The notes below the pieces were generated by a model, which made no database searches, was not told the origin of the DNA, and worked only from the letters and a program-made list of their open reading frames with translations. From Natronoarchaeum philippinense (lineage in GTDB: Archaea; Halobacteriota; Halobacteria; Halobacteriales; Natronoarchaeaceae): a stretch of 64,000 nucleotides of DNA. The DNA is taken from positions 744,001 to 808,000 of the forward strand of contig NZ_OBEJ01000001.1 of the NCBI RefSeq assembly GCF_900215575.1, given 5' to 3'. The translations under genes and the position numbers were made by a program. Of this stretch, positions 4,152-16,146 are shown piece by piece (position 1 is the first letter of the stretch; each line of letters starts with the position of its first letter).

Positions 4152-6218
4152 TCACTGGACTTCGAGTCGCGCTCGAAGATCGGACGACCAGTACACGTCG
4201 CCGTCGTAGATGACCGGCATCTCGGCGCGATCGAGATACTCCAGCAAGCGGCCACGCGGAAGGGCGTGTTCGGATTCGGTTCCACAGAGATACGAGTACT
4301 CGGCGTCGTCCAGAAACGGGTGGTAAAAGGCCCCGACGTGGTGCGAGGAAAACTGGTCGTACGAGAGCAGGAACTGGTCGCCGTCGACGCGTTCGAGTTC
4401 CGCGGTCGCCGGAAGCCGATTCTCGCTCTGAGTCAGTGAGTGGGTGCCGTCGCCGACGACGGCGTAGTCTTTCCCCATCATGATGCGCCGGCGAGCGAGT
4501 TGGAGTGCCCGCTCGATGCCGAAGCCGTGGACCAGCAGGCGGGCGAAGGCCGAGCCGACCTTGACGGCGTGGTCGTTGAGAACCTGCGAGAACGTGATCG
4601 CGCCGGCGACGCTGCCGCGCTCGACCAACTCTCGCCCTTCGTAGTAGGAACCACAGGCGTTCAGGAAGAACGTCTGGGCACGGCAGGTGTCGATACTGGA
4701 CGACGACATGTAGCCGTCCGGACAGCGCAGCCCGGACTGCTCGCAGTGGCCGATGTAGTGGACGAAGTCCCGTCGAGACTCGAACAGTCGAGCGAGTTCG
4801 GCCGTCGAGAGCTGTTCGGCGACGGTCACGTCGATCGGTAGGTCCTCACCGCGCTGCCGATATATCTCGGCGACATCGGCGTGTTCGTCGGCCATCTCGT
4901 CGTCGTTGAGCACGACCGCGATGTCGATGCCGTCGTCGCTGCGGTCGAGATACTCCAGTCGGTTCTCGTAGGCCGCTGGCGTGGACTTGAACACGTCGAT
5001 CGGCGTCCCCTCCGCGAGCCAGCCGTGGATACGCCCGCTTTGCAGTTCCGGCTTGACGATGTCGACGGACGCCACGTCACCGGCTGCTCGACCGGTCGAC
5101 CCGCGATAGAAGTCGTCGAGCGACCGCGCGACGAGTTCGCTTCCCTCCAGTTCGGAGGTTCGCGGGGCGTAGATCAGGCTGAGCCGATCGAGCAGGTGGG
5201 GCAGCGTCGAGAGGTGTTCGGGCGTCGGCTCGACGTACGTCGAGAGATGCCAGTCGGGAAGCCGGTGCTGGATCGCCTCGTGGGCGACGGACATGTACGT
5301 CGCCAGACGCTCGGCCGGCGCGGCATCGTACAGCGCGCCGGCGTCCAGCCCAAGCGCGTCGAGTAGGCTCGCCTCGGAGAGGTTCGTCCCGTAGGGACCG
5401 ACGTTGCGGACCAGACAGTCCAAAAAAAACACCTGCCGGAGGAGTCGGGTTACCTCGCGTTCGAGATCCGGCAGTCCCGAGAGCTCCCACTCGGCGTCGA
5501 GCGAGGGCAGTCGGAGCGCCGGCCGGGGGCGGTCAGCAACGTCGACCGACGCCTGCAGGTAGTACGAAAGCGGCGCGAGCACGAACAGCGACGCCAGATC
5601 GTCGGGTGCGACGATCTCGATGCCCGTCGACGGCGTCGCGGCGACGACGGCGTCGGGCACCGCGACTTCCTCGCCGGTTTCGATACGCGGGGGATGGCCA
5701 CGCAGCGACGGGTACGAGCGGTCGACGCCGGTCGTTCGGTGAGATGCGTGGAGGTGCGACAGCGCGGTTGCGACGCCCTCGGGCGTCGGCGGGACCGTCA
5801 GCGAGTGGGTCGGCACCTCGCTACGGCTCCGAAACCCCACCGTCACGTCGGTGCGATCCGGGAACGAGACGACGGTGCAGTCGTAGTCGTCGGTGCGGCG
5901 GATCGATAGTTCACCGTCGACCCGGAGGTAGGTCTTGATCTCGGCGTCGACGTCGATCACGTACTCGTCGGTCGGGAGCGCGATCGGGTCGGTGTCCGGC
6001 CCGAGTTCGTGGGTCTGCCCGCCCGACAGCGGCGTCGCGTAGACGACCGCTGGCGGGAAGACGAGTTCCGACGCCGAGCAGACGAGCGCCGAGTCCACCG
6101 GCCGCGGGAGGTCGGCCTCGCTCCGTGCGAGGTGCAGATCCGGACTCCTGACGGCGATCTCCGCGCTGTCGGCGCCGAGGACGCGGAGGCCGGACCCCGT
6201 CACCTCCCACTCGATCAT
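4152..6218 (-). CDS. CHAT-domain (caspase-like) cysteine protease homologue
   Basis: This 688-residue soluble protein has a C-terminal half that reads as a CHAT domain: HYIGHC with the probable catalytic His491, then FFLNACGS with Cys522 about 30 residues later, followed by GSVAGAITFSQVLNDHAVKV and FARLLVHGFGIERALQLARR. That order (G-H, then NAC-G, then helix with AL-LARR) is characteristic of CHAT peptidases of clan CD. Residues 1 to about 400 are not recognised; they contain beta-rich stretches and a helical segment and may sense a signal or bind a substrate. No TPR array and no membrane segment are visible. CHAT proteins elsewhere act in programmed death and CRISPR-guided (Craspase) or TPR-linked defence. 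Substrate and trigger here are unknown. Confidence 0.8.
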   Translation of the reverse strand: MIEWEVTGSGLRVLGADSAEIAVRSPDLHLARSEADLPRPVDSALVCSASELVFPPAVVYATPLSGGQTHELGPDTDPIALPTDEYVIDVDAEIKTYLRVDGELSIRRTDDYDCTVVSFPDRTDVTVGFRSRSEVPTHSLTVPPTPEGVATALSHLHASHRTTGVDRSYPSLRGHPPRIETGEEVAVPDAVVAATPSTGIEIVAPDDLASLFVLAPLSYYLQASVDVADRPRPALRLPSLDAEWELSGLPDLEREVTRLLRQVFFLDCLVRNVGPYGTNLSEASLLDALGLDAGALYDAAPAERLATYMSVAHEAIQHRLPDWHLSTYVEPTPEHLSTLPHLLDRLSLIYAPRTSELEGSELVARSLDDFYRGSTGRAAGDVASVDIVKPELQSGRIHGWLAEGTPIDVFKSTPAAYENRLEYLDRSDDGIDIAVVLNDDEMADEHADVAEIYRQRGEDLPIDVTVAEQLSTAELARLFESRRDFVHYIGHCEQSGLRCPDGYMSSSSIDTCRAQTFFLNACGSYYEGRELVERGSVAGAITFSQVLNDHAVKVGSAFARLLVHGFGIERALQLARRRIMMGKDYAVVGDGTHSLTQSENRLPATAELERVDGDQFLLSYDQFSSHHVGAFYHPFLDDAEYSYLCGTESEHALPRGRLLEYLDRAEMPVIYDGDVYWSSDLRARLEVQ

Positions 6219-8205: not shown

Positions 8206-9057
8206 ATGATCAACGAGACTGTCGAGGAGATCGAGGACATGCAGACCTCGAGTTCCTCGGTAGTAGCGGTCAAGGCAGCCGAGGCGCTGACCGACCTGCT
8301 CGGCCGGGAGTTCGCAACGGTCGAGGAGTTCGAGCGCGATCTCGACCGGAACGTCAGCGCGCTGCGACGGGCGAACCCCTCGCACGCATCGTTACAGAAC
8401 GCGATGCTGGAAATACGGGACACGGTGACGGCTCGGGAGTACGACGACCTCGACGCCGCGAAAGACGGTACTCGCGAGGCTATCGAGAGCGTCGTCGACG
8501 CCGTCGAGCAGGCGAAACACCGCGCCGCCGACAACGCCGCGGCGCTGTTCGAGGACGGCGATACGGTGTTGACTCACGACTACTCGACGACCGTGCTCGA
8601 AGCGATCGAACAGGCCGCCAGCGACGGCGCCTACCTCGACGTGTACGTCACCGAAGCTCGGCCCCGATATCTCGGCCGGAAGACCGCTCGCACGCTGGCG
8701 TCGATCGACCGCGTCGACGCCACGCTGCTGACCGACAGCGCCAGCGGCCACTACCTGCCCGAGTGCGATCGGGTCGTGACCGGGATGACCTGTATCGTCG
8801 ACCGCACGCTGTACAATCGAGTCGGCACGTTCCCCATCGCCGCGGCGGCCGAGCAAGTCGGGACGCCGGTGACGGTCGTGGGATCGAGTACCAAGATCGT
8901 CGAGGAGGGGTTCGTCTTCGAGAACGAGTACCGCCCAGCCAGTGAAGTCATGCGCGAACCGGCCGACGGCTTCGAAATCGAGAACCCTACCTACGACGCG
9001 ACGCCGATCGACCTGATCGAATCGGTCGTCACCGACGAGGGCGAGCGGGAATTCTAG
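8206..9057 (+). CDS. eIF2B-alpha / MtnA / R15P-isomerase superfamily protein
   Basis: The protein has 283 residues from ATG 8206 (MINETVEEIEDMQTSSSSVV); longer open frame upstream is Arg-rich shadow sequence. It has the N-terminal helical region and C-terminal Rossmann-like part of the eIF2B alpha/beta/delta family (LYNRVGTFPIAAAAEQVGTP, VVGSSTKI). Enzymes of this fold (MtnA, ribose-1,5-bisphosphate isomerase) use a Cys in a THCN-type motif and an Asp in a GAD-R motif. Here the first reads LTHDYST, so the Cys is replaced by Asp, while the ECDRVVTG segment keeps an Asp. It may therefore be a non-isomerase regulatory relative. Alignment by eye only. Confidence 0.75.
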   Translation: MINETVEEIEDMQTSSSSVVAVKAAEALTDLLGREFATVEEFERDLDRNVSALRRANPSHASLQNAMLEIRDTVTAREYDDLDAAKDGTREAIESVVDAVEQAKHRAADNAAALFEDGDTVLTHDYSTTVLEAIEQAASDGAYLDVYVTEARPRYLGRKTARTLASIDRVDATLLTDSASGHYLPECDRVVTGMTCIVDRTLYNRVGTFPIAAAAEQVGTPVTVVGSSTKIVEEGFVFENEYRPASEVMREPADGFEIENPTYDATPIDLIESVVTDEGEREF

Positions 9058-9156
9058 CAGTCTCAAATATTGGGGCCGCTGCTGGCAAAAATACTAGTCT
9101 GCTACTCATTTCTGGCGAAAGTGTTAAATCTGACTACAAGAACATGCGTAGTATTG

Positions 9157-10638
9157 ATGAACAGTGACACAAGCACGTTGCAACAGCGGCCGAGTGGCGT
9201 CCCGGGACTGGATAGGCTGCTCAACGGCGGGTTCGTCGACGGCCGGCTCTATCTCGTGCTGGGCGAGCCCGGGACGGGAAAGACGACGCTCGGCATGGAG
9301 TTTCTCAGCGCCGGGTTAGAACGCGACGAGACCGTCCTGCTCATCCACGGCGAAGAATCTAAAGGCGGCCATCTCACGAATGCAGCGCAGTTCGATATCG
9401 ATCTCTCCGACGCGGAGTTTCTGGACATCGGCCCCGAATCGGAGTTTTTCTCGGAGGCCCAGACGTACGATGTCGTCGATCCCGCGGACATCGAGGACGA
9501 CAGCCTGATCGTCGACATCCGGGACACGATCGACGAGCTCGATCCCGACCGCGTGCTCATCGACCCGATCACGCAGTTTCAGTACCTCGAATCGACCGAG
9601 TACCAGTTCCGAAAGCGAATCATCTCGTTCGCTCGATTTCTCAAGGATCGCGGGACGACCGTGCTGGCCACGAAGACCCCCGAATCCCAGTTCGACGAGC
9701 AGCTCAAATCCCTCAGCGACGGCGTCGTCTCGCTCGCGTACGAGCAGGAAGGTCGCCGGGTCAGCGTCCCGAAGCACCGGGGCATCGGACAGCGCGACGG
9801 CACGCACGGTCTCGAAATCCGCGACGACGGACTCCACGTCTACCCCGCACTGCGGCCCCAACAGCACTCTCAATCGTTCGAACCGATGCCGCTGACTTCC
9901 GGTGTCGACGGGCTCGACGAACTGCTCGGTGGCGGCATCGAGCAGGGCACCGTCACCATCGTCAGTGGGCCCTCCGGCGTCGGCAAAACGACGACTGTCA
10001 CCGAGTTCCTCCAGACCGCGGCGACCGAGGGCGACGGCGCGCTGGCGTACCTGTTCGAGGAGTCGCTCGATACGTTCACGTACCGCTCGGAGACGTTCGG
10101 CGTCCCGGTGACCGAGCTGCGCGAGGACGGCTCGCTGAGCGTCGAAGCGATCACGCCCTCGGTTCGCTCGCCCGAGGAGTTCGCCCAGCGGATCAGGAGG
10201 CAAGTCGAACAACAGGATATCGACCTCGTCGTCCTCGACGGTATTCAAGGGTACAAAACGGCGATCAAAGGCGGCGAAGACGATGTCGACCTCCGGCGTC
10301 GGCTGCACGCCCTCTCGGAGTATCTGACGAACGTGAACGTCTCTGTCATCCTGATCGACCAGCGCCACGAGGTGACCGGGCTGCCACAGCCGACCAGCGC
10401 CAACGTGAGCTATCTCGCGGACAACATCATCTACCAGCAGTTCGTCGAGATCGAGGGCGAGCTACAGCGGGTCGTCGGCGTCCTGAAAAAGCGCGTCGGC
10501 AACTACGAAACGGTTCCACGGCGCTTCTCGATCACGGACGACGGACTGTCGGTTGGCGATCCGATGACGGGCTACCACGGCGTCGTGACGGGGCTCCCCG
10601 AGCAGCGCAGCGTCGGGAGTCACAGCTCGCCCGACTGA
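9157..10638 (+). CDS. KaiC-like double RecA-fold ATPase
   Basis: This 493-residue protein contains two KaiC-type ATPase domains. The first (about residues 8-245) has Walker A GEPGTGKTT and opens with SGVPGLDRLLNGGF. The second (about 255-490) opens with TSGVDGLDELLGGG and has Walker A GPSGVGKTT. Walker B-type strands are RVLIDPI and LVVLDGI. In cyanobacteria KaiC is the clock ATPase/kinase; in haloarchaea related proteins are usually signalling ATPases of unknown output. Start ATG 9157 follows a TATA-like gttaaat about 31 nt upstream. A histidine kinase gene begins 7 nt after its stop, so the two are almost certainly cotranscribed. Confidence 0.9.
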   Translation: MNSDTSTLQQRPSGVPGLDRLLNGGFVDGRLYLVLGEPGTGKTTLGMEFLSAGLERDETVLLIHGEESKGGHLTNAAQFDIDLSDAEFLDIGPESEFFSEAQTYDVVDPADIEDDSLIVDIRDTIDELDPDRVLIDPITQFQYLESTEYQFRKRIISFARFLKDRGTTVLATKTPESQFDEQLKSLSDGVVSLAYEQEGRRVSVPKHRGIGQRDGTHGLEIRDDGLHVYPALRPQQHSQSFEPMPLTSGVDGLDELLGGGIEQGTVTIVSGPSGVGKTTTVTEFLQTAATEGDGALAYLFEESLDTFTYRSETFGVPVTELREDGSLSVEAITPSVRSPEEFAQRIRRQVEQQDIDLVVLDGIQGYKTAIKGGEDDVDLRRRLHALSEYLTNVNVSVILIDQRHEVTGLPQPTSANVSYLADNIIYQQFVEIEGELQRVVGVLKKRVGNYETVPRRFSITDDGLSVGDPMTGYHGVVTGLPEQRSVGSHSSPD

Positions 10639-10644
10639 TCGACG

Positions 10645-11658
10645 ATGGTCGAGATACAGCTACTCTTTGCCGACGACGGCAACCGAAACGCGCTGGCCTC
10701 GGTCGTCGAGGAGCACCACACCGCGATCACCGACCTCGAATTTCGACAGTGTGACATGTACGTCGTCGACGAAGCCGTGTTTCCAACGTACCGAGACGAC
10801 ATCGAGGCACGGAAGCACAGCCAAGAACCGGTGTTCTGTCCGGTCGTTCTCGTCCGTCGGGACCGAACGCCGATCACGGTGACGCTCCCGGACCCCGCGA
10901 CGCGCGATCCGCCACACCTCGTCAACGCCGTCGTCGAGGCGCCGATTCAAAAGCAGACGCTGTTTCGGACGTTTACCAACCTGCTGTCGCGCCGCGACCA
11001 GAGCGAGGCGCTCACCGAGGAGTTACGGGAGCGAAACGAACGGCTCGAACAGTTCGCCAGCACGCTGCGCCACGAACTGCGCAACCCGCTGAACATCCTC
11101 GATGGCTACCTCGATCAGGCGACCGAGCGCAGCGACGACCACTTCTTCGAGATCTGCCGGGACGCCACGGACCAAATGATGCAACTGCTCGAAGACACGC
11201 TGTTGCTCATCGACGGCGGCGAGGTGTCGACCGACCCCAGACCGCTCGATCTCTCGGCGGTGAGCGACGGCTGCTGGAACGTCGTCACGGCTGACGGTGC
11301 CGATATCGAAATCCGGACCTCGAAACAAATCCTGGCCGATGAGGTGCGGCTGAAACAGCTCTTGGAAAATCTGTTTCGTAACGCCGTCGAGCACGCCGGA
11401 CCGGACGTGACCGTCACAGTCGGCGATGTCGAGGGCGGGTTCTACGTCGAAGACGACGGCACGGGGATTCCGACCGAGGAGCGCAATCGCGTGTTCGACG
11501 AAGGCTACTCCGTCGCCAGCGCGGGCACCGGACTCGGACTTGCGGTCGTACAGGCGGTCGTCGACGGCCACGAATGGGAAGTCTCTCTCACCGACAGCAC
11601 GTCCGGCGGCGCCCGGTTCGAGATCACCGGCGTGCGCCCGTATCCCGCGGCGCAGTGA
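10645..11658 (+). CDS. Histidine kinase with N-terminal receiver-like domain
   Basis: This 337-residue soluble kinase has an H-box (LRHELRNPLNILDG), N-box (LLENLFRNAVEHAG), G1 (DDGTGIP) and G2 (GTGLGLAVV), so the catalytic core is complete. Residues 1 to about 115 follow the pattern of a response-regulator receiver: IQLLFADDGNR, CDMYVVDEAVFP, PVVLVRR and VVEAPIQKQTLFRTFTNLL. The usual conserved Lys of the fifth strand appears to be missing (VVEAPI), so it may be a pseudo-receiver. There are no membrane segments. It follows the KaiC-like gene by 6 nt, suggesting that the kinase reads KaiC-like ATPase state. No cognate response regulator is adjacent. Confidence 0.9.
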   Translation: MVEIQLLFADDGNRNALASVVEEHHTAITDLEFRQCDMYVVDEAVFPTYRDDIEARKHSQEPVFCPVVLVRRDRTPITVTLPDPATRDPPHLVNAVVEAPIQKQTLFRTFTNLLSRRDQSEALTEELRERNERLEQFASTLRHELRNPLNILDGYLDQATERSDDHFFEICRDATDQMMQLLEDTLLLIDGGEVSTDPRPLDLSAVSDGCWNVVTADGADIEIRTSKQILADEVRLKQLLENLFRNAVEHAGPDVTVTVGDVEGGFYVEDDGTGIPTEERNRVFDEGYSVASAGTGLGLAVVQAVVDGHEWEVSLTDSTSGGARFEITGVRPYPAAQ

Positions 11659-11696: not shown

Positions 11697-11790
11697 CTTA
11701 CGCGCGTCGATGTCGACCCACTCGCCTTCCAAACCGCCGACCGGTGCCATCGAAACGCGCTTACGCGCGCTCGATGTCGACCCACTCGCC
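11697..11790 (-). repeat. Direct repeat of an oxidoreductase gene end (paralogue remnant)
   Basis: The sequence at 11760-11790, which encodes the last residues (GEWVDIERA, stop) of the Gfo/Idh/MocA gene, is repeated at 11697-11726 with a single missing base. The upstream copy reads GEWVDIDAR in the same orientation and is not attached to an intact gene. The copies lie 63 bp apart. It looks like the surviving 3' tip of a second Gfo/Idh/MocA gene, or a short duplication of this one. The rest of the 102-bp gap shows nothing recognisable. Confidence 0.65.
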
Positions 11791-12879
11791 GGTTTGATCA
11801 CTCCGCTCAATAGCATCCAACACTCGCTGTGCTGCTAGCCCGTCCTCGAAGTTCGGGGACGCCTCGCCGCCCTCGGCGACCGCGGTCAGGAACTCGTAGT
11901 TCTCGTGGACGAAGGTGTGCTCCCAGCCAAGCACGTGGCCCGGCGGCCACCAGTGCTCGACGTAGGGATCGGATTCGTCGGTCACGAGCACGGTCTCGTA
12001 GCCGCGGTCGCCCTCGCGGAGCACCTCCAACTCGTTCAGGCGTTCGAGCGAGAACTTCAGACTGCCCTTCGAGCCGTTGATTTCGATGGTGTGGTCGTTC
12101 TTGTGTCCGGTGGCGAACCGCGAGGCCTCGAAGGTGGCCATCGCGCCGCCCTCGAAGGACGCCTGCGCGCTGTAGGCGTCGTCGACGGTGACCGGCCGCG
12201 TCTCGTCGTCGCCCTCGACCGGGCGCTCGTCGACGAACGTACGGCAGTGGCCCGAGACGCGGTCGAGTTCGCCCTGCTGGTCGCCGACGAGGAAGCGCGC
12301 GAGGTCCACAGTGTGCGAGCCGAGATCTCCCAGCGCGCCGCTGCCGGCTAGGTCCTCGTCCATTCGCCACGCCCACGGCGCCTCCGGGTCGGCCAGCCAG
12401 TCCTGCAGGTAGCGCCCGCGGACGTGCCGGATCTCGCCGAGTTCGCCGTCGTCGATCAGATTCTTGGCGTACTGGATCGCCGGCACGTACCGGTAGTTGA
12501 AGGCCGCACCGGCCGGCACGTCGGCGTCCCGTGCGGCGGCCGCCATCTCCTCAGCCTCTTCGAGCGTCGGCGCCAGCGGCTTCTCGCAGAACACCGGCGT
12601 CCCCGCTTCGAGTGCCGCGATCGAGGGCTCGGCGTGGATGTGGTTCGGGCCGAGGTTGTAGAACACGTCGACCTCGTCGATCACGTCGCGCCAGTCGGTC
12701 GCCGTCCGAGAGAAGCCGAACCGTTCGGCGGCGTCGGCCAGCGCCTCCTCGTCGCGCCCGATCAGCACGTCGCGCTCGACGGCTGGCGCGTCCGGGAAGA
12801 ACATCGGCAGCCGCGCCAGCGCGTTCGCGTGTGCTTTCCCCATGAATCGGTACCCGAGAACGCCTACCTGTAGGGTCAT
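11761..12879 (-). CDS. Gfo/Idh/MocA family NAD(P)-dependent oxidoreductase (1)
   Basis: This 372-residue protein starts MTLQVGVLGYRFMGKAHANA with a Rossmann dinucleotide-binding loop (GYRFMGKAH) and carries the family motif PVFCEKPLAPTLEEAEEM, whose EKP lysine takes part in catalysis. The later AWRMDEDLAGSGALGDLGSH segment includes the conserved G-L-D-GSH signature. Members oxidise sugars, inositols or their derivatives with NAD(P); the substrate here is unknown. It belongs to a minus-strand cluster with a second oxidoreductase (14778-15881) and a TIM-barrel isomerase/epimerase (13707-14675), which fits a polyol or uronate-type catabolic route. Confidence 0.92.
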   Translation of the reverse strand: MTLQVGVLGYRFMGKAHANALARLPMFFPDAPAVERDVLIGRDEEALADAAERFGFSRTATDWRDVIDEVDVFYNLGPNHIHAEPSIAALEAGTPVFCEKPLAPTLEEAEEMAAAARDADVPAGAAFNYRYVPAIQYAKNLIDDGELGEIRHVRGRYLQDWLADPEAPWAWRMDEDLAGSGALGDLGSHTVDLARFLVGDQQGELDRVSGHCRTFVDERPVEGDDETRPVTVDDAYSAQASFEGGAMATFEASRFATGHKNDHTIEINGSKGSLKFSLERLNELEVLREGDRGYETVLVTDESDPYVEHWWPPGHVLGWEHTFVHENYEFLTAVAEGGEASPNFEDGLAAQRVLDAIERSDQTGEWVDIERA

Positions 12880-12951
12880 AGAGAGGGGTTCGTTCGATTT
12901 CCAGTTAGTTGTTCCCGTCTGCGAGTCGGTCGTGGCGCCGGCGGGGAGCAG

Positions 12952-13662
12952 TTAGAACACGTCGACGTTGACGCCGCCGTCGTCGTCATCGCCGCCGCCC
13001 TGAAGTGAGCCGGCGATAGCCGACGTGAAGGCGTCGAGCCCGCGCGTCTGGTACCACACCGTTCCCGGGCCCGAAAAGTCCATGACGAGGCCCTCGCCGC
13101 TGAGCAGCGTCGACTTGAGGCCGCCGACGCGCCGGGCGTCGAAGTCGACCGACTCCTCCCACGCGACGACGTGCTCGTTGTCGACGGTGTAGGTCTCGCC
13201 GCTTCCGAGTTCGACAGTTTCCAAGCCGCCGAACGCCTCGACGAAGACGCTACCGGTGCCCTTGAGCGCCAGCGGCGTCATGCTCGCGCCGGCCAGCATC
13301 GACTGCAGCCCGCCGAACTCCGAGTCGATGTCGATCCCCGCATCGGAGGCGAGGAAGGCGCCGTCGACGGCGTACAGTGTCTCGTCGTTCAGTTCGTGGT
13401 GGTGAACGTCACCGGGCTTGGGCGGCGCGAGCGTCACCGTGCCGCGCCCGCCCTCGGCGGTGAACTCGTTTGCGACCAGCGACTCGCCGCCCAGCATCGA
13501 CTTAGCGGAGCTGAGCAGGCCGTCGCGGCTCGATGTCGTCTCGATCGAGACGGTCGACGAGTGGCTGACCATCGCGCCGGGCTCGGCGAGAATCGACTCG
13601 CCTTGTTCGAGGTCGACGCGGAGGTGCGCGTACGCGGGACGGTGAGTGATCTCGACGTTCAT
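12952..13662 (-). CDS. AIM24 / TIGR00266 family protein
   Basis: This 236-residue protein starts MNVEITHRPAYAHLRVDLEQ and contains the features of the AIM24/TIGR00266 family: LAEPGAMVSHSSTV, repeated beta strands ending in FLASDAGID and GTGSVFVEAFG, and a Gly/Asp-rich tail (LQGGGDDDDGG). The fold is a beta-sandwich with internal symmetry. In yeast the relative AIM24 is mitochondrial, but the biochemical role of prokaryotic members is unknown. There is no signal peptide or membrane segment. It sits between two genes of the oxidoreductase cluster, on the same strand, with gaps of 72 and 44 bp. No functional tie to them is evident. Confidence 0.88.
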   Translation of the reverse strand: MNVEITHRPAYAHLRVDLEQGESILAEPGAMVSHSSTVSIETTSSRDGLLSSAKSMLGGESLVANEFTAEGGRGTVTLAPPKPGDVHHHELNDETLYAVDGAFLASDAGIDIDSEFGGLQSMLAGASMTPLALKGTGSVFVEAFGGLETVELGSGETYTVDNEHVVAWEESVDFDARRVGGLKSTLLSGEGLVMDFSGPGTVWYQTRGLDAFTSAIAGSLQGGGDDDDGGVNVDVF

Positions 13663-13706
13663 CTCTGGGAATAATTATCTTCTACTGACTTAAAATGTAC
13701 GCGTCG

Positions 13707-14675
13707 TCACGCCCAGTAAGCGTCGCCGGGCTGGGTGTCGAAGACCGCCCGGTCGAGCATGTCGACGGCCTTCTCTAACCCTTCCAGCGAGGAGGTCAGC
13801 GAGTCCTCGTGTTCGATCGACAGCGCGCCCTCGTAGCCGACCATCCGCAGCGTCGAGACGATGTCCTTCCAGTGGGATTCGCCGTGGCCGTAGCCGATCG
13901 ACCGGAAGAGCCACGAACGGTTCGGCTCGTCGTCGTAGGCCGTGGTGTCGAGGACGCCCTTCTCGCGGGCCTGTGCCTCGTAGACTTTGGTGTCTTTGGC
14001 GTGGAAGTGATGGATGGCGTCTTCCTCGCCGAGCAGGCGGATCGCGTCGGTGATCTCGATGCCCTGCCAGTACAGATGCGAGGGGTCGAAGTTCGCGCCG
14101 ATCCGGTCGTTGGTCGCCTCACGGAGTCGCAACAGGCCGTGGGGCTCGTAGACGAGCATGTTGGGGTGCATTTCGATGGCCACGTCGACGCCGTGGGCGT
14201 CGGCGTGCTCGGCGATCTCGGACCAGTAGGGGATCGCAACGTCGTCCCACTGGTACTCGTGTGCGTCGGCGTGCTCGCTGGGCCACGGTGCCGTGATCCA
14301 ATTGGGAACGTCGTCGTCGGGACCGCCGGCAGGAAGCCCCGAAAAACAGGTGACGGTGTCGACGCCGAGCTGGGCGGCGAGCTCGATCGCTTCCCGGAGT
14401 TCGGTGTCGGCTTCGGCGGCCTGCTCGTCGTCCGGGTGGATCGGGTTGTTGTGGGTCGCCAGCGCCGAAATTCGCATGTCGTGCTCGTCGAGCAACTCCT
14501 GTAGCTCGGCTTGGGCGTCCTCGTCGTCGAGATACGCCTGTCGGTCGAGATGGTCGTCGCCCGGATACCCGCCGACTCCCGGCTCGGCGGCGGCGACGCC
14601 GAGGTCGGAGAGGTACGCGAGCGCGTCCTCGAACGAGCGATCGTACAGCGGCGGAGTGTGAACGCCGATGTCCAT
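13707..14675 (-). CDS. Sugar phosphate isomerase/epimerase (TIM barrel)
   Basis: The protein has 322 residues from MDIGVHTPPLYDRSFEDAL; another ATG lies three codons upstream and cannot be excluded. Motifs include AAEPGVGGYPG in the first strands, VTCFSGLP, VDVAIEMHPNMLVYEP (metal-ligand Glu), and IGANFDPSHLYWQGI with the conserved Asp/His of xylose-isomerase-like barrels. HFHAKDTKVY and ALSIEHEDS complete the expected metal site. Such enzymes epimerise or isomerise ketoses or inosose-type compounds with Mn or Mg. With the two flanking Gfo/Idh/MocA dehydrogenases it probably forms one catabolic set. Exact substrate unknown. Confidence 0.9.
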   Translation of the reverse strand: MDIGVHTPPLYDRSFEDALAYLSDLGVAAAEPGVGGYPGDDHLDRQAYLDDEDAQAELQELLDEHDMRISALATHNNPIHPDDEQAAEADTELREAIELAAQLGVDTVTCFSGLPAGGPDDDVPNWITAPWPSEHADAHEYQWDDVAIPYWSEIAEHADAHGVDVAIEMHPNMLVYEPHGLLRLREATNDRIGANFDPSHLYWQGIEITDAIRLLGEEDAIHHFHAKDTKVYEAQAREKGVLDTTAYDDEPNRSWLFRSIGYGHGESHWKDIVSTLRMVGYEGALSIEHEDSLTSSLEGLEKAVDMLDRAVFDTQPGDAYWA

Positions 14676-14777
14676 ACAGGCCACGTCGATGGACGCGTGA
14701 ATAAAGGTTCGGAGAAGCGGCAGAAGCTCGGTGGAGTAGAGTGTGCGCTCGAATGGTGGCTAAGGTGCGGCGTGCCG

Positions 14778-15881
14778 TCAGTCGTCGGCCGCCTGCGGGT
14801 CGGCTTCGGCGTCAGCCTCCTCGTCGAGTCGAACTGCACGGCCGGTCTCGCCGGAACGGTAGATGGCTTCGATGACGCGCTGGACCGTCAGGGCCTCATC
14901 GACGGTGTTGCGGTCGGGGGCCTGCCCTGTGGCGACGGCTTCGAGGAACGCGACCTGCTCCTGTCGGTGAGGGTCGTGCGAGCGCGTCTCGACTTCGGTC
15001 GTCGAGAGGTGGTGAGCACCGCCCTGTCCTGCCTCGTAGATTTCGAGGTCGCCGCTTGCCTTGTCGAAGCGCGCGCCGGCGTCGGTGCCGCGGACGAAAA
15101 ACTCCTGTGTCGGCGGTCGGTTGGTCGCCCACGCGACTTCCAGCGAGATGGTCTCCCCGCCGGCACAGCGGATCAGCGCCGTCGCCGAGTCGTCGACGTC
15201 GAAGTGCTCTGCGCCCTCGTCGTCGCCCCACATATCGACGTAGGCGTAGTCCTCGTCGGTGCCGAACTCCGAGCGTGCCGTGCCCGAGACTTCGACGACC
15301 TCGGGGTGATCGAGGAAGTGCAGCGCGAGGTCGATCGCGTGGACGCCGATGTCGATCAGCGATCCGCCGCCGGCGACGTTCTCGGCGGTAAACCACGAGC
15401 CGCGGCCGGGGATGCCCCGCCGGCGAACGTAGTTCGCCTCGATGTGAGTTACGTCGCCGAACCGGCCGGTCGTCTGCTGGTCCTTGATGATCTCGGCTTG
15501 GTGGTGATAGCGGCTGTGGAACCCGACCATGCAGAAGCCGTCGGCCTCGTGGGCGGCCTCGGCGATCCGCTCGGCGCTCTCGACGGTGTCGGCCAACGGC
15601 TTTTCGAGCAGCACGTCGAGCCCCGCTTCCAGTGCGTCGACGGCGTACTGCTCGTGGAACGTGTTCGGCGTCGTGATGACGGCGGCGTCGATCTGCTCGA
15701 ACAGTTCGTCGTGATCCTCGTAGGTAGGCACGTCGAACTTATCTTCGAAGCTACTTCTCGCGTCGGCGTCGATGTCCATCCCGCCGACGAGATTCGCGCC
15801 CATCTCGGTCAGCCGGTCGGCGTGGTAGTGCCCAATGTTACCGAGGCCGACGACGCCCAGTTTCACGTCGTTTCTAGTCAT
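14778..15881 (-). CDS. Gfo/Idh/MocA family NAD(P)-dependent oxidoreductase (2)
   Basis: The protein has 367 residues from MTRNDVKLGVVGLGNIGHYH; the upstream extension is hydrophobic shadow sequence. The Rossmann loop GLGNIG, the catalytic motif VLLEKPLADTVESAERI, and GGGSLIDIGVHAIDLALHF are the family signatures. It differs clearly from the oxidoreductase at 11761-12879, so the two are not a recent duplicate pair. The C-terminus is acidic (DEEADAEADPQAADD). It is the first gene of the minus-strand cluster, so the promoter in the AT-rich 15882-16020 stretch may drive it and the isomerase/epimerase downstream (102 bp gap). Likely polyol dehydrogenase; substrate unknown. Confidence 0.92.
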   Translation of the reverse strand: MTRNDVKLGVVGLGNIGHYHADRLTEMGANLVGGMDIDADARSSFEDKFDVPTYEDHDELFEQIDAAVITTPNTFHEQYAVDALEAGLDVLLEKPLADTVESAERIAEAAHEADGFCMVGFHSRYHHQAEIIKDQQTTGRFGDVTHIEANYVRRRGIPGRGSWFTAENVAGGGSLIDIGVHAIDLALHFLDHPEVVEVSGTARSEFGTDEDYAYVDMWGDDEGAEHFDVDDSATALIRCAGGETISLEVAWATNRPPTQEFFVRGTDAGARFDKASGDLEIYEAGQGGAHHLSTTEVETRSHDPHRQEQVAFLEAVATGQAPDRNTVDEALTVQRVIEAIYRSGETGRAVRLDEEADAEADPQAADD

Positions 15882-15996
15882 ACCTGTACTCTGTGTACTG
15901 GGCGGTTTAACTCTTTCAGATTGACCACCGGTAGGCCCTATTTTCCCAATCATATTCGGTCTCGAAATGAATAGGACGTAACGCCGAACGAACAGT

Positions 15997-16011
15997 AATA
16001 TAATGTATATT
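15997..16011. promoter_or_regulatory. AT-rich inverted repeat in divergent promoter region
   Basis: aatata at 15997-16002 and tatatt at 16006-16011 form a perfect 6-bp inverted repeat with a 3-nt spacer, inside the strikingly AT-rich stretch 15940-16020. The region separates the minus-strand oxidoreductase gene (start 15881) from the plus-strand small protein (start 16147). It could be a regulator site or only a TATA-rich promoter element. The rest of the 265-bp gap has no gene. Confidence 0.35.
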
Positions 16012-16146
16012 CTATAACACATCACCGAACGTCGAACGAGTAAGTGTATCCTGCTTGGACTGAGTTCACGGCAAACGAAGTAGCCGTTGCCGAACGGTCG
16101 CCGGGACGGGATATAGTTTTAACATTCGCGGCACGAACAGGTGTGT

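Follow-up and report, generated by a model that had tools for sequence, protein, structure and literature searches.

In cyanobacteria, SasA and KaiB bind to the CI domain of KaiC and compete for it (PMC6378743); in an older model based on SAXS and EM, SasA sat on the CII side instead (PMC3161067). For bacteria, the 2011 genome paper of Ramlibacter tataouinensis described, for this and other bacteria, a "second kaiC-context" that has no kaiB, shows SY, TY or SF sites, and systematically has a kinase gene, Nt_HK, after kaiC. The special N-terminal domain of Nt_HK (RtaNt) has receiver-like similarity, co-transcription of the two genes was found by RT-PCR, and a SasA-like role was proposed (PMC3164672). 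In the haloarchaeon Haloferax volcanii, cirC adjoins fixL, which was noted in 2014 without a statement on the N-domain (PMC3941300). KaiC-receiver fusions and a view of KaiC as a hub of archaeal signalling are cited in PMC5847659, and a 2025 review knew of no study on the function of an archaeal pseudo-receiver (PsR; PMC12632262).

Here we describe a kaiC-kinase pair in a 64,000-nucleotide stretch of Natronoarchaeum philippinense DNA, which we call the window. The pair is an archaeal variant of a known module, and its layout has the bacterial (2011) and H. volcanii (2014) precedents given above. New are the archaeal family, the fold and PsR status of the kinase N-domain, the distribution of the pair, the exchange of kinase halves, and a co-divergence that is specific to CI; an earlier mention in Makarova et al. 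2017, on KaiC hubs in archaea, is possible. KaiC is common in archaea, yet the cyanobacterial output pathway is reported to be absent there (PMC5520375); the kinase of the pair is a candidate KaiC reader.

The kaiC gene and the adjoining kinase gene

The first-pass annotation of the window described a double-domain KaiC and, 6 nt further on, a soluble histidine kinase; the open reading frames and Pfam agree with this description (Table 1). Both genes lie on the same strand, separated by positions 10639-10644. The upstream neighbour, of the eIF-2B/ribose-1,5-bisphosphate isomerase type, is co-directional and ends at 9057, and the downstream neighbour (11761-12879, minus strand) is convergent, so the unit comprises two genes. 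Judging from sequence, the TTAAAT element is probably a leaderless haloarchaeal promoter for this unit. No response regulator gene was found beside the pair; the genome of the organism has 21 receiver matches.

By motif reading, both P-loops, both catalytic Glu pairs and the Walker B aspartates are intact in the two RecA-type domains of KaiC, which presumably assembles as a hexamer. When compared with S. elongatus KaiC, T413 and S418 keep the phospho-sites T426 and S431, and Tyr419 replaces T432; this SY pair is common to most homologues. The long KaiA-binding tail is absent from the C-terminus, and the protein stops approximately 20 aa past the conserved GDP motif region. In the kinase, residues N242/N246, D270-G272-G274 and G294-G296-G298 are invariant among 19 homologues. 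Pfam detected neither a PAS nor a GAF domain in this protein; residues 1-122 are its sole non-kinase part, and the N-domain is its only sensory domain in N. philippinense.

Table 1. Features of the kaiC-kinase unit, in window positions.
Feature	Positions	Strand	Remarks
TATA-like TTAAAT	9124..9129	+	about 30 nt 5' of the KaiC ATG; read from sequence
kaiC, double-domain KaiC ATPase, 493 aa	9157..10638	+	ATG start; PF06745 E 3e-65, two domains; PDB KaiC matches E 1e-51
CI domain, KaiC aa 12-231	9190..9849	+	Walker A GEPGTGKT 36-43, EE 66-67, Walker B D136
CII domain, KaiC about aa 246-468	9892..10560	+	Walker A GPSGVGKT 271-278, EE 301-302, phospho-site region T413...S418-Y419
Soluble histidine kinase, 337 aa	10645..11658	+	ATG start, 6 nt past the kaiC stop
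N-terminal pseudo-receiver, kinase aa 1-120	10645..11004	+	phospho-Asp site occupied by D42; Lys replaced by A99, which precedes invariant P100
Single predicted helix, kinase aa 103-162, joining PsR alpha5 to the first DHp helix	10951..11130	+	AF2 model of the full-length kinase
HisKA/DHp domain, kinase aa 134-188, phospho-acceptor H143	11044..11208	+	Pfam; H143 invariant in 19 homologues
HATPase_c, kinase aa 232-328	11338..11628	+	Pfam; N, G1 and G2 boxes intact

Reading of the translations at 11761-16025 (minus strand) showed an adjoining metabolic cluster of two Gfo/Idh/MocA-type dehydrogenases and a sugar isomerase/epimerase-like gene. Elsewhere in the window, positions 4152-6218 (minus strand) encode a 688-aa protein without a significant match in Pfam, NCBIfam or PADLOC. 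Its C-terminal part contains HYIGHC ... FLNACGS, which we take, as a lead only, to recall the motifs of CHAT-type caspase-like peptidases.

The N-terminal domain of the kinase is a pseudo-receiver

Residues 1-122 of the kinase matched no Pfam family, and their 36 relatives gave isolated weak matches at most. A profile of the 37 homologous N-domains matched receivers in the PDB with a best E of 1.4e-5, the pseudo-receiver of PleD being included. AlphaFold2 (AF2) modelled the domain (mean pLDDT 85, pTM 0.79) with five strands (3-7, 26-28, 38-42, 67-72 and 95-99) and three clear helices (11-21, 43-59 and 103-120) in receiver order; alpha2 and alpha4 are not clearly formed, and the model otherwise has the (beta-alpha)5 receiver fold. 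The top 50 Foldseek matches to this model were receivers almost throughout, with E from 2.5e-4 and TM about 0.6-0.7. The receiver-like character that had been read from the sequence is thus borne out by the profile, the model and the structural matches, and a non-receiver fold was not what AF2 and Foldseek returned. The proposed comparison with the PsRs of KaiA and CikA fared differently: neither was among the top 50 structural matches, and membership of those families is unsupported. The accompanying statement that these two PsRs read KaiC has to be corrected for CikA, whose PsR contacts KaiB on KaiC and not KaiC alone (PMC6378743).

At the Lys site, none of the 37 family sequences has Lys and 25 have Ala, which bears out the altered fifth strand noticed earlier and its reading as a sign of a pseudo-receiver. 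Thr or Ser is present at its site in 5 of the 37, the others having chiefly Arg or other residues, and the metal-binding acidic pair (DD) is not conserved in the family. The phospho-Asp site is occupied by Asp in 31 sequences, Glu in 4 and Gly in 2. The 2025 review defines a pseudo-receiver as a receiver from which one or more of the five residues DD, D, T and K are missing (PMC12632262). By this definition, the kinase N-domain is a pseudo-receiver, because Lys is absent and Ser/Thr and the acidic pair are not kept. A SasA-like N-domain of the thioredoxin/KaiB-like type is ruled out by the receiver fold in AF2 and Foldseek, and so is a kinase of the CikA type, as Pfam detected no GAF domain and the PsR is N-terminal instead of C-terminal.

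Recurrence and spread of the pair

Among 293 genomes of the order Halobacteriales, the N-domain was matched in 141 (E<=0.01) and KaiC in 166 (E<=1e-60). A double KaiC lies immediately upstream and on the same strand in 58 of the 64 strong N-domain matches (E<=1e-15), usually at a gap of about 100 nt or less, and many divergent kaiC-kinase pairs overlap or are separated by a few nucleotides. This recurrence rules out a chance adjacency of two signalling genes; the claimed kaiC-kinase adjacency is widely conserved in related genomes. The genome of N. philippinense itself has approximately 30 matches of the histidine kinase type and one N-domain match, which adjoins its only double KaiC at E<=1e-60. 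A search with the full-length kinase returned ordinary kinases without the N-domain, nearly all of them haloarchaeal.

We also read 40 further stretches with weaker N-domain matches, solitary matches, or KaiCs without an obvious partner. Many of them still hold a diverged N-domain kinase beside KaiC, and some hold a tandem pair. The PsR is the constant part of these proteins and the rest of the kinase is variable: HisKA-HATPase may stand alone or be combined with at least one PAS domain, the kinase core may be a different one, or two PsR kinases may occur in tandem; in Haloferax larsenii, KaiC is followed by two PsR kinases. Stand-alone receivers of 125-127 aa (Pfam Response_reg) overlap the end of kaiC at L121:2720-3097 and L123:4515-4898; they keep the Lys-Pro motif and have no acidic pair. 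N-domain kinases without KaiC nearby occur at a few loci, L110-L115; supposing that the domain reads KaiC, these kinases should act on a KaiC elsewhere or have changed partner. On the Halorussus halophilus plasmid NZ_CP044524.1, a kaiC homologue (L151:3501-4916) lacks an annotation. The matching KaiC gene in genome G082 (coordinates as for L151) has an in-frame TAA, with the downstream PsR kinase intact.

Beyond the Halobacteria, a profile search found the PsR domain in another, non-haloarchaeal family of the same phylum, beside a single-domain KaiC (L173, L176) and beside a double KaiC (L178). In the former two (L173:2277-4193 and L176:2386-4389), a gap of 3 nt separates the single-domain KaiC from a downstream PsR-PAS-HisKA protein in which Pfam detected no HATPase_c. 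On the Acaryochloris plasmid pMB01 (L153:2711-6547), an archaeal-type PsR kinase stands divergent to KaiC, with an E of about 1e-26; the other flank of this KaiC-like gene is a receiver-kinase. In eight Alphaproteobacteria (Bradyrhizobium, Sphingomonas, Rhizobium, Pacificitalea, Phenylobacterium, Agrobacterium, Sinorhizobium and Sphingobium), we examined one plasmid KaiC each, and all are directly followed by a kinase or response-regulator-type gene. The bacterial KaiCs that we read fit the SY/TY/SF site pattern (PMC3164672). The N-domain profile of the alphaproteobacterial proteins also matches receivers and has Arg at the Lys site, where the archaeal family has Ala. The archaeal profile and that of the eight alphaproteobacterial KaiC-linked kinases align co-linearly but weakly (hhalign P 0.0018, probability 15%), so a specific relationship between the two domains, and homology with RtaNt, is at most tentative.

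Identities to two relatives were compared for the pair and for GlyA. In a congeneric genome (G001), identity is approximately 80% for KaiC, 72% for the kinase and 94% for GlyA; in a genome of another family (G210), it is 79% for KaiC, 70% for the N-domain and 79% for GlyA. Taxonomic labels outside the named plasmid records stand for relative kinship. Because the pair is about equally close to the distant genome and to the congener, these sequences suggest that the cassette has moved by joint transfer.

Co-divergence with CI and readings of the pair

Distance matrices were compared over 57-61 pairs, and the two halves of KaiC were tested after redundancy thinning. Over all pairs, PsR distances correlate with KaiC distances at r 0.93 and those of the kinase ATPase part at r 0.70, the latter falling to 0.15 among distant pairs. 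Such correlations are indirect and may partly mirror shared inheritance or rate differences, although the kinase core and CII act as internal controls. With CII held constant, the partial r between PsR and CI is 0.58-0.74 (about 0.67; 0 of 2000 permutations), whereas that between PsR and CII with CI held constant is -0.10 to 0.05. PsR distances hardly follow the HATPase of their own polypeptide (r 0.11-0.27). CII is not mere noise, as its distances track those of the kinase ATPase no less closely than CI distances do. Of the two main PsR subgroups, one considered by itself (13 loci) gives a weaker CI signal, with a partial r of 0.33. Because the divergence of the PsR follows CI, not CII, and barely that of its own kinase core, these data suggest that the PsR contacts the CI domain of KaiC.

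We therefore favour, as the reasonably probable reading, a two-gene signalling cassette in which the PsR would dock on CI and the state of KaiC would modulate the kinase. KaiC would act as an ATP-driven state machine, and the N-terminal PsR, as the only input domain of the kinase, would dock on its CI half. Changes in KaiC that depend on its ATP state or phosphorylation would be passed through the continuous helix from alpha5 into the DHp domain to the kinase core, which may then alter phosphotransfer to an unlinked response regulator. We infer binding, the direction of the signal, the regulator that partners the kinase and the input that KaiC measures, and likewise the status of the pair as an output module, which the first-pass annotation had proposed. 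A clock is not needed for this cassette. More tentatively, the PsR could be dedicated to docking on KaiC-CI and take the functional place of SasA/KaiB. KaiC and PsR might then form an old, exchangeable receptor-reader unit, occurring in Halobacteria, the other family of the phylum and a cyanobacterial plasmid, with a related domain in proteobacteria, onto which different kinase outputs were grafted for a read-out independent of KaiA and KaiB.

The signal could also run the other way, with the kinase as input and the PsR regulating the ATPase or autophosphorylation of KaiC, as KaiA does in cyanobacteria. Co-divergence of PsR and CI is symmetric, and the stand-alone receivers at L121 and L123 have no kinase part, leaving KaiC or a third protein as their only possible targets; KaiA, moreover, carries a PsR and stimulates KaiC (PMC12632262). 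However, KaiA works through its C-terminal domain on the KaiC tail, whose long form is missing here, and the kinase machinery is complete and fused directly to the PsR. We consider this direction unlikely.

It is quite improbable that the N-domain works within its own kinase as a sensor or brake, binding a ligand or sensing redox in the manner of the CikA PsR, with KaiC co-transcribed and acting separately. In CikA, PsR domains are quinone-binding and inhibit the kinase to which they belong (PMC12632262), and the kinases at L110-L115 occur without KaiC, but this reading would leave unexplained both why PsR divergence follows CI rather than the kinase core and why kinase halves are exchanged while the pairing of PsR and KaiC lasts. 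A working receiver phosphorylated on D42, in a hybrid kinase or phosphorelay, would fit the acidic residue that most members keep at the phospho-site; given the missing Lys, the loss of Ser/Thr in most members, the unconserved acidic pair, and Gly or Glu in place of D42 in six sequences, we hold it to be very improbable. As for the output of a full archaeal circadian oscillator, KaiC keeps T413 and S418, with Tyr at the T432 position, and kaiC homologues of H. volcanii show light/dark-dependent transcription (PMC3941300), yet this is hardly conceivable with the cyanobacterial central output pathway found missing in surveys of Archaea (PMC5520375), no KaiA-type tail, and no KaiB above the Pfam cut-off in any of 146 genomes from the order (three matches fell below it; control genomes, including Synechococcus, positive), which extends to the order the absence of KaiB claimed for the locus. 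A defence system was ruled out, as KaiC had only weak P-loop matches in PADLOC and the kinase had no match there.

The cassette with a PsR docked on CI names a candidate reader, a predicted binding domain and a predicted KaiC ring, and Haloferax genetics is tractable; the pair is thus a testable candidate for an archaeal KaiC read-out without the usual clock partners. As in the SasA-KaiC system of Synechococcus, a histidine kinase would be linked to KaiC by an N-terminal non-catalytic domain; the N-domain of SasA is thioredoxin/KaiB-like, whereas that of the N. philippinense kinase has a receiver fold. The PsRs of CikA and KaiA likewise have a receiver fold without phospho-chemistry and act around KaiC, but that of CikA is C-terminal and binds KaiB, and KaiA is not a kinase. 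The second receiver of PleD, among the best profile matches, is also a pseudo-receiver, with an adaptor use, and has no link to KaiC. H. volcanii cirC-fixL, known here by its published description, is likewise haloarchaeal and also combines a double-domain KaiC gene with an adjacent gene for a sensor kinase. The Ramlibacter context has the same arrangement, a double KaiC directly followed by an N-domain kinase with kaiB absent; our pair differs from it in belonging to an archaeal branch, which has Ala at the Lys site where the bacterial members examined keep Arg.
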